Source: Hoeflea prorocentri | Lineage (GTDB): Bacteria > Pseudomonadota > Alphaproteobacteria > Rhizobiales > Rhizobiaceae | DNA length: 64,000 nt | NCBI RefSeq assembly: GCF_027944115.1 | Contig: NZ_JAPJZI010000001.1 | Span: 4,340,001 to 4,404,000 of the forward strand | Direction: 5' to 3' | In this document: positions 35,447-42,304 of the stretch, piece by piece | Position numbering within the stretch: position 1 is the first letter of the stretch | How the letters are laid out: each line of letters starts with the position of its first letter | Notes under the pieces: generated by a model | The model's input: the letters and a program-made list of their open reading frames with translations, nothing else | What the model was told of the DNA's origin: nothing | Database searches by the model: none | Position numbers and translations under genes: made by a program

Positions 35447-35520
35447 ACCACAGCTTGCGACGAAAAGCGTCGCTGTAGCGGCTGTCTGTTGAACAGATTC
35501 GCGGTAAGCTGCTTGGGTAA

Positions 35521-35697
35521 AGGTTCTTTGCCGCGATTCGCGCTGATAAGCGCAAGTTTGGCAAAGCCAAGAGGGAAGCCGGTGCAAATCCGGCGCTGCC
35601 CCCGCAACTGTAAGCGGCGAGCCTCTCCCAAAAGCCACTGGCCTTGACAGCCGGGAAGGCAGGAGACGGTGATGACCCGCAAGCCAGGAGACCTGCC
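35521..35697 (+). promoter_or_regulatory. Cobalamin (B12) riboswitch
   Basis: The conserved elements occur in order on the plus strand. AGGGAAGCCGGTGCAAATCC (35571-35590) is followed by CTGCCCCCGCAACTGTAAGC (35596-35615), GCCACTGG (35634-35641), GCCGGGAAGGC (35650-35660), and the B12 box AAGCCAGGAGACCTGCC (35681-35697). No T-rich terminator follows directly; complementary arms CCGGGC (35715-35720) and GCCCGG (35744-35749) may form part of the expression platform. Downstream plus-strand genes are a 21-codon leader ORF and a 105-residue unknown protein. Confidence 0.93.
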
Positions 35698-35806
35698 TTT
35701 ACGTGAACTGCAAGCCGGGCGGGGTGCCCCGGAAGAGCGGCGAGCCCGGTCCTGGCCGGCACCTGCGCTTTCTTATGCCCCGTCTCTGCCTTTTGAGGAG
35801 AGACAT

Positions 35807-40975: not shown

Positions 40976-41051
40976 TTGACCGCCTCTCGGCTTCTTTCAG
41001 CGATTGACTCCAACGACAGGCGATGTAAAAGGCCTGCGAACGGAGATGAAA

Positions 41052-41171
41052 ATGCACGTTTCAGAACTGCATAGCTGGCATGAGTGCCGTCCGGCCGATC
41101 GGGCCGGCGACCTTCTTGCATACATCCGTTTTGTCAAAACAACGGCCACGAAGACGACCAAAACGGTCTGA
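41052..41171 (+). CDS. Thr/Lys-rich leader peptide upstream of asd (candidate attenuator peptide)
   Basis: A 39-codon ORF starts at ATG 41052, six bases after GGAG (41042-41045); ATG 41046 in the same frame is an alternative. The last part has six Thr codons (41139, 41142, 41148, 41154, 41157, 41163) and three Lys codons (41136, 41151, 41160) in ten, then GTC and TGA at 41169. Thr and Lys are end products of the pathway containing Asd, whose gene begins 99 bases later. This is the architecture of a ribosome-mediated attenuator, as in E. coli thrL, but I know of no described case for asd in these bacteria. Confidence 0.6.
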   Translation: MHVSELHSWHECRPADRAGDLLAYIRFVKTTATKTTKTV

Positions 41172-41236
41172 CGTCTCTGGCTTGTCCGCGCTCTTCCCGG
41201 TCCAGCCGGGGAAGGGACCCGCAATGGCCGGCGGGT
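41152..41236 (+). promoter_or_regulatory. Hairpin series between leader peptide and asd
   Basis: AGACGACC (41152-41159), within the Thr/Lys codon run, can pair with GGT (41165-41167) and CGTCT (41172-41176). Downstream, CTTCCCGG (41193-41200) pairs with CCGGGGAAG (41206-41214, one bulged G), and ACCCGC (41217-41222) with GCGGGT (41231-41236). No long T-run follows, so the mechanism could be transcriptional or translational. Confidence 0.45.
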
Positions 41237-41269
41237 TGCGAACAGGAAGAGAGACAGGAGTAGGACACC

Positions 41270-42304
41270 ATGGGATTTCGTGTCGCAGTCGCCGGTGCCA
41301 CAGGCAATGTGGGCCGGGAAATGCTGGAGATTTTGTCGGAGCGCAATTTTCCGGCGGACGAGGTCATCGCGCTGGCATCCAGCCGCTCGGTGGGCAAGGA
41401 GGTTTCCTTCGGAGACGGGACTCTGACCGTCAAGAACCTGGAAACACACGATTTTTCCGATACCGACATCTGCCTGATGTCGGCCGGCGGGTCAGTGTCA
41501 CAGAAATGGTCGCCGAAGATCGGCCAGCAGGGATGCGTGGTAATCGATAACTCTTCGGCCTGGCGTTATAATGCCGATGTTCCGCTGATCGTGCCGGAAG
41601 TCAATGCCGACGCGATCAGCGAATTTTCCAGGAAGAACATTATTGCCAATCCGAACTGTTCAACGGCCCAGCTGGTTGTCGCCCTCAAGCCGCTTCATGA
41701 TGCAGCCGTCATCAAGCGTGTCGTGGTTTCGACCTACCAGTCGGTTTCAGGCAGCGGCAAGGACGGTATGGACGAGTTGTTCAACCAGACACGGGCCGTC
41801 TTCGTGAACGACCCTGTCGAGAAGGGCATCTATACCAAGCGCATCGCCTTTAACGTCATTCCGCATATCGATAGCTTCATGGAAGACGGATATACCAAGG
41901 AAGAATGGAAGGTTCTGGCAGAAACCAAGAAAATGCTGGATCCGAAGATCAAGGTGACGTGCACCGCTGTGCGGGTTCCGGTCTTCATTGGCCATTCCGA
42001 AGCTGTCAATCTCGAGTTCGAGAAAGAGATCACGGCCGAACAGGCCCGTGACATCCTGCGCGATGCGCCCGGTTGCCTTGTTGTCGACAAGGCCGAAGAT
42101 GGCGGTTATGTCACGCCGCATGAATGCGCCGGCGAGGATGCGACCTATATCTCGCGTATTCGCGAGGATGCGACGGTCGAAAACGGTCTGAACATGTGGG
42201 TGGTATCGGATAATCTGCGCAAGGGTGCGGCGCTCAATGCGATCCAGATAGCCGAACTACTGGTCGCACGCGGCCTTATCAAATCGAAGAACCAGGCCGC
42301 CTGA
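41270..42304 (+). CDS. asd: Aspartate-semialdehyde dehydrogenase
   Basis: Asd reduces aspartyl phosphate to aspartate semialdehyde, the branch point of lysine/diaminopimelate, threonine and methionine synthesis. The 344-residue protein has the NADPH motif AVAGATGNVGREML near residue 6 and SAGGSVS near 71. The catalytic Cys130 is in NPNCST and IPHID lies near residue 200. A Thr/Lys-rich leader ORF and hairpins precede it, and a strong intrinsic terminator follows, so it is probably a single-gene transcript. Confidence 0.96.
   Translation: MGFRVAVAGATGNVGREMLEILSERNFPADEVIALASSRSVGKEVSFGDGTLTVKNLETHDFSDTDICLMSAGGSVSQKWSPKIGQQGCVVIDNSSAWRYNADVPLIVPEVNADAISEFSRKNIIANPNCSTAQLVVALKPLHDAAVIKRVVVSTYQSVSGSGKDGMDELFNQTRAVFVNDPVEKGIYTKRIAFNVIPHIDSFMEDGYTKEEWKVLAETKKMLDPKIKVTCTAVRVPVFIGHSEAVNLEFEKEITAEQARDILRDAPGCLVVDKAEDGGYVTPHECAGEDATYISRIREDATVENGLNMWVVSDNLRKGAALNAIQIAELLVARGLIKSKNQAA

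Follow-up and report, generated by a model that had tools for sequence, protein, structure and literature searches.

A conserved threonine- and lysine-rich leader peptide upstream of asd, a candidate attenuator in Hoeflea prorocentri and its relatives

Aspartate-semialdehyde dehydrogenase (Asd) is the branch enzyme for lysine, threonine and methionine as well as for the diaminopimelate of the cell wall. In enterobacteria, thrL encodes a threonine-rich leader peptide in front of aspartate-pathway genes; it relies on codons for Thr and Ile and on an intrinsic terminator. In contrast to thrL, the leader described here has Thr and Lys codons, no terminator and asd alone as its target.

The closest described element is SEP5 of Sinorhizobium meliloti 2011, a small ORF that carries six Thr codons and three Lys codons toward its 3' end and sits in the 5'-UTR of a gene that its authors call aspartate dehydrogenase (Hadjeras et al. 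2023, PMC10117765). According to the passages on SEP5, its translation was detected by Ribo-seq and Western blot, and the peptide was described as "possibly a leader peptide" and as conserved only in Sinorhizobium (PMC10117765). The original prediction for the locus studied here knew of no described counterpart for asd; SEP5, published in 2023, overturns this, and it is the sole description of the element that we found in the open literature. As a translated Thr/Lys small ORF before the aspartate (semialdehyde) dehydrogenase gene, proposed to be a leader peptide, SEP5 is the same kind of element. The difference is that those passages describe SEP5 without an RNA structure or an output and for Sinorhizobium only, whereas the present element is found in many families.

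Stalling at end-product codons switches RNA structures at trpL of S. meliloti, with a transcription terminator and a released sRNA as output (PMC7298713). As far as that account goes, the stalling and RNA switch resemble those proposed here, and in a related bacterium, but there is no terminator at the asd leader. Upstream of Salmonella speF, orf34 carries codons for the amino acid that is sensed, and RNA folding conceals the ribosome site of the gene that follows (PMC6386406); it differs, in the part of the study concerned, in that arginine is sensed for polyamine synthesis and that Rho and RNase G are involved. Candidate cys leader peptides of Actinobacteria have end-product codons and no obvious terminator (PMC1262725), but they concern another amino acid and another phylum, and a search there for conserved hairpins found none.

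We analyzed a stretch of 64,000 nucleotides from Hoeflea prorocentri (contig NZ_JAPJZI010000001.1, positions 4,340,001 to 4,404,000), hereafter the window, whose own coordinates are used throughout. The leader and its target gene comprise the following features.

41004-41031, + strand: promoter-like element 5' of the leader, TTGACT then GATGTAAAAG
41042-41045, + strand: leader ribosome site, GGAG, 6 nt 5' of the ATG
41052-41171, + strand: leader ORF of 39 codons, product MHVSELHSWHECRPADRAGDLLAYIRFVKTTATKTTKTV followed by the stop
41136-41165, + strand: control codons KTTATKTTKT, six Thr, three Lys and one Ala
41256-41260, + strand: asd ribosome site, AGGAG, from the sequence
41270-42304, + strand: asd, aspartate-semialdehyde dehydrogenase (NCBIfam NF011456, E 8e-157; also Pfam)

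The original prediction, namely six Thr and three Lys codons within ten codons at the end of a 39-codon ORF with a good ribosome site in front of asd, is borne out by the control codons, by the GGAG site and by the assignment of the downstream gene to asd in both NCBIfam and Pfam. After the ten-codon run come a single Val codon and the stop TGA (tail KTTATKTTKTV), and 98 nt separate the leader stop codon from asd. A second in-frame ATG of the leader ORF lies at 41046. Upstream of the leader are an ORF that we take, from its translation, to be leuB, and a PAP2-family gene. Elsewhere in the window, a cobalamin riboswitch occupies 35504-35714 on the + strand (Rfam RF00174, 145.5 bits).

The leader ORF has the densest Thr/Lys run among the 2245 ORFs of the window (stop to stop, at least 11 codons, both strands). 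It alone has seven or more Thr and Lys among its last 16 residues, with nine, and three other ORFs have six. In the flanks of 80 relatives, seven or more were found in 2 of 7060 ORFs. Pfam and NCBIfam searches returned no model for the leader peptide, and Rfam at its gathering score returned nothing at the leader locus, neither a thr or asd leader model nor any other family.

Close relatives retain the codon run, the point on which the original prediction had staked itself. We collected 173 asd upstream regions, comprising 54 from host-family genomes, 80 from genome contigs and 39 stretches picked by place, and scored a run where the last 16 residues of an ORF ending no more than 250 nt from asd included seven or more Thr and Lys. 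The run precedes asd in 146 of the 173 regions, a count that includes duplicates, since some genomes entered twice through overlapping collections; one locus (L025), whose scoring began two codons into the gene, was entered as lacking it. A looser cut-off of at least six gives 155 of 173. Genera with the run include Rhizobium, Sinorhizobium, Agrobacterium, Shinella, Ciceribacter, Neorhizobium, Martelella, Hoeflea and Roseibium. In other families of the order, each represented by one genome, the run was found in 11 of 20 and was absent from nine. A class-wide sample of 29 retrieved loci, 27 of them scored by script, gave a run in two of the 27. These two loci (L190 and L211) are Thr/Lys-rich ORFs 5' of asd in two genomes beyond the order.

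The N-terminal part of the peptide drifts freely; what stays is its Thr/Lys tail, together with the paired RNA segments described below. Of 75 non-redundant leaders, 56 have an in-frame ATG 34-44 codons ahead of their stop. The promoter-like element at 41004-41031 was missed by a sigma-70 consensus scan of the window; among the same 75 leaders, TTGAC occurs 25-75 nt 5' of an in-frame leader ATG in 57, where chance, by a rough estimate, would give 0.04 per sequence. This recurrence suggests that the leader may have a dedicated promoter.

All 75 non-redundant leaders contain both Thr and Lys. The share of Thr is 42.6% in the last 12 residues and 5.0% in the 18 before, and the corresponding values for Lys are 23.9% and 1.5%; neither Ile (4.8 vs 5.0) nor Met (1.7 vs 3.2) is enriched in the tail. 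The leaders had been chosen on Thr and Lys, which biases these totals, and the missing enrichment of Ile and Met less so. The order of the run differs by family (KTTTTTKTT, TTKTTTKT, TTKAAKKTGTGTT) at constant composition, a pattern more in keeping with codon counting than with an arrest peptide. It is very unlikely, in our judgment, that the tail acts as a nascent-chain arrest peptide or a functional small protein, although AKTTTKTV is almost invariant in one large group and tagged SEP5 was reported to be stable enough to detect as a protein (PMC10117765, passages on SEP5): the order and number of Thr and Lys shift between families while composition is kept, and the N-terminal part varies freely. 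We consider it highly probable that the leader run senses Thr and Lys.

To follow the leader across the order, we built a covariance model (R1) from 48 sequences and ran it on 249 whole genomes. It matched 33 genomes once each, a lower bound because R1 misses known leaders, for example in G040, G041 and G046. Thirty-one of the 33 matched genomes lie outside the model, and G000 and G036 are in it. All 32 matches that were read run into the start of asd and contain a Thr/Lys ORF, and the 33rd (G059) adjoins asd by the separately found position of that gene; since R1 contains the codon run, the Thr/Lys content of the matches is partly built in, but the link to asd is not. In the window itself, R1 gave one strong match. 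No comparable Thr/Lys run was found near hom (12 loci) or near lysC, thrC and dapA (nine loci each). The highest Thr and Lys count in these samples, seven, comes from a K/R-rich ORF that lies 1.4 kb 5' of one thrC match, and the second, six, to a K-rich ORF before one dapA. Together, these comparisons support a conserved Thr/Lys leader peptide that appears to be dedicated to asd.

Complementary segments overlapping and following the control codons, also part of the original description, are present in the window. The RNA features referred to below are:

41156-41168, + strand: segment 1, hairpin GACC-AAAAC-GGUC inside the control codons, with double changes
41174-41182, + strand: segment 2, UCUCUGGCU, 2 nt 3' of the leader stop, pairing with segment 3
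41191-41216, + strand: local hairpin CUCUUCCCGG/CCGGGGAAGGG, competing with the 2:3 pairing, the predicted nascent fold with the ribosome at the stop
41204-41212, + strand: segment 3, AGCCGGGGA, putative antisequestor partner of segment 2
41217-41236, + strand: middle hairpin CCCGC/GCGGG, with a hairpin here in 89 of 92 sequences
41245-41258, + strand: segment 4, GGAAGAG and GACAGG, complementary to CUCUUCC (41191-41197) and CUUGUC (41181-41186)

The structural comparison used 155 of the 173 regions (the 146 with at least seven Thr and Lys and nine lower ones added by eye), which were thinned by similarity to 75 sequences; 48 picked from these form alignment A1. In swap tests, segments were exchanged between sequences in 20000 permutations. 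One test set comprised 29 of the 75 sequences, and another 27 of 29 sequences from outside the host family; for upstream coding stretches, 35 of the 75 were used.

Covariation, of the kind that the original prediction named as a check, supports the codon hairpin, the 2:3 pairing and the closing helix before asd. The codon hairpin reads GACG-AAAAC-CGUC in most relatives and GACC-AAAAC-GGUC in others, and both sides are changed, G-C to C-G and mostly through synonymous Thr codons, in 15 of the 48 sequences of A1. For segments 2 and 3, none of the 20000 permutations matched the true pairing in 29 divergent sequences (on average -26.3 vs -22.3 kcal/mol), and the result was again 0/20000 in the 27 sequences outside the host family. 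On A1, 90.8% of the cells of the 2:3 helix are paired, against 87.8% when shuffled and at most 63% when slid; double-change cells number 11 at the true register and 21 at slide +2, and slide +1 has as many or more. Pairing of segments 1 and 2 was supported in the mixed set and was not significant outside the host family (1393/20000). The middle hairpin reaches -6 kcal/mol or lower in 82 of the 89 sequences that have it.

The closing helix joins the pyrimidine block to the purine block before asd, with 97.6% of A1 cells paired. In its CUCUCC/GGAGAG form, C-G is replaced by U-A in 6 of 48 sequences, perhaps through a single event. Its swap test gave 58/20000 outside the host family and was not significant within it. 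The purine block lies 5' of the asd ribosome site, not within it, in several families. None of the control pairings A:C, S1:C and S1:B was significant in swap tests. Segment 3 with C was significant (7/20000), which we ascribe to the arms of the middle hairpin because they sit in those two windows. Upstream coding stretches were rejected as partners of segment 2 (S0:A, 15557/20000; Sm:A, 10458/20000). RNAalifold on A1 returned the codon hairpin and the local hairpin and nothing else. These comparisons support conserved, mutually exclusive RNA pairings that extend from the stop-codon region to asd, with weaker support for the last helix in the host family.

Taken in bulk, the folding energy of the leader is ordinary (z -0.90), so the case for structure rests on comparison and not on stability. 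This ordinary value would also suit a composition accident inherited by ancestry, with no regulation at all, but we regard that reading as extremely improbable in view of the compensatory changes, the order-wide conservation, the unique density of the run and its exclusive link to asd.

We propose a ribosome-mediated attenuator that ties asd expression to charged tRNA-Thr and tRNA-Lys with translation initiation as its output, and we favor this reading with modest confidence. When Thr or Lys is scarce, the ribosome would stall within the codon run and leave segment 2 free to pair with segment 3; the purine block by the asd ribosome site would then stay open, and asd would be translated. When both amino acids are ample, the ribosome would arrive at the stop codon and mask segment 2, the local hairpin would form, the pyrimidine block would close on its purine partner, and translation of asd would be hindered at initiation.

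In folding calculations on the window, the predicted nascent structures switch as this model expects: before segment 4 is made, RNA free from 41166 (ribosome stalled upstream) folds into the 2:3 pairing, and RNA free from 41184 (ribosome on the stop) folds into the local hairpin at 41191-41216. Many Rhizobium-type folds contain a helix between GCUCUCU and AGAGAGC, the latter belonging to the asd ribosome site. For the window, CUUGUC is able to form a helix with GACAGG, which extends into the AGGAG site; this segment-4 closed form lies at -50.6 kcal/mol, 2.3 kcal/mol above the unconstrained fold at -52.9. Stepping the ribosome along the leader under equilibrium folding left the accessibility of the asd site unchanged (stalled above stop in 33 of 75). 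Forcing the 2:3 pairing made the asd site more open in 46 of 75 and left the window equal (0.49 and 0.49). Because this calculation bars pseudoknots, the closing helix is necessarily lost in it.

In the window, the interval separating the leader from asd has no intrinsic terminator on the + strand, and across 89 sequences there is no U-tract after the middle hairpin (T fraction 0.03-0.16 per position over 10 positions). Blocked translation initiation is favored because no U-tract terminator is conserved, and, given the sensing half, we consider a translation-level output probable. Intrinsic transcription attenuation of the trp type matches the layout of codon run, competing hairpins and structural gene, and a few relatives (for example L170, L026 and L163) have a T-rich end of the middle hairpin or T-rich sequence after it; with no + strand terminator in the window and so low a T fraction past the hairpin, we judge it quite improbable. 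The proposal of attenuation by both amino acids stands as regards a Thr/Lys leader dedicated to asd and exclusive pairings, but its classical trp sense is not shown by the sequence because there is no intrinsic terminator.

Rho-dependent termination, or mRNA decay, between leader and asd could instead follow from the same Thr/Lys sensing; whether Rho gains access would then depend on RNA structure and on the stalled ribosome. The absence of an intrinsic terminator between leader and asd agrees with this alternative, and the conserved C/U block past the stop (CUCUCUCCCC) could load Rho. Published parallels, as far as the cited accounts extend, are Salmonella speF, which joins an Arg-codon ORF with Rho and RNA folding (PMC6386406), and an S. 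meliloti uORF with C-rich codons that governs attenuation of a DUF1127 gene (PMC12218461). However, the stretch is not richer in C than in G overall (C 0.306, G 0.331), and the conserved purine partner near the asd ribosome site would be left without a role; we consider Rho or decay unlikely as the output.

The translational reading can be extended to the whole group: an ancient attenuator over much of Hyphomicrobiales, and perhaps in two genomes outside it, in which one run reads Thr and Lys and an antisequestor acts on translation initiation without a terminator. We put forward this full version tentatively, as somewhat short of an even bet. At the level of the peptide, the present comparison supports the leader-peptide proposal made for SEP5, widens its range and adds a predicted RNA architecture. 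In four Sinorhizobium loci (L055, L056, L057 and L059), as in the window, six Thr and three Lys codons lie near the 3' end of the leader before asd, and the range of a peptide described as restricted to Sinorhizobium reaches many families. The pathway beyond Asd leads to Thr and Lys, two of its end products; if the proposal is true, the plant symbionts and soil bacteria of a large group couple the Asd step to both together. The leader-asd unit would then offer a compact system in which to probe two-signal attenuation without a terminator.

Several loci depart from the common pattern. Shorter leader variants occur at L024, L027, L029 and L141, with tails STIKTSIS, LTKKTSIS, SLTKTSIS or STIKTAII that have less Thr and Lys, along with Ser and Ile; the variant at L024 has strong segment 2:3 complementarity all the same. 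In one genus of the host family (L019 and L168), asd has no Thr/Lys leader, and sequence resembling segments 3 and 4 (GTGCTCTTCCGG ... GAAGAAGAGACAGGAG) remains before the gene; possibly the sensor was lost here and the output half left behind. In another genome without the leader (L145), a long, nearly perfect hairpin lies just 5' of asd.
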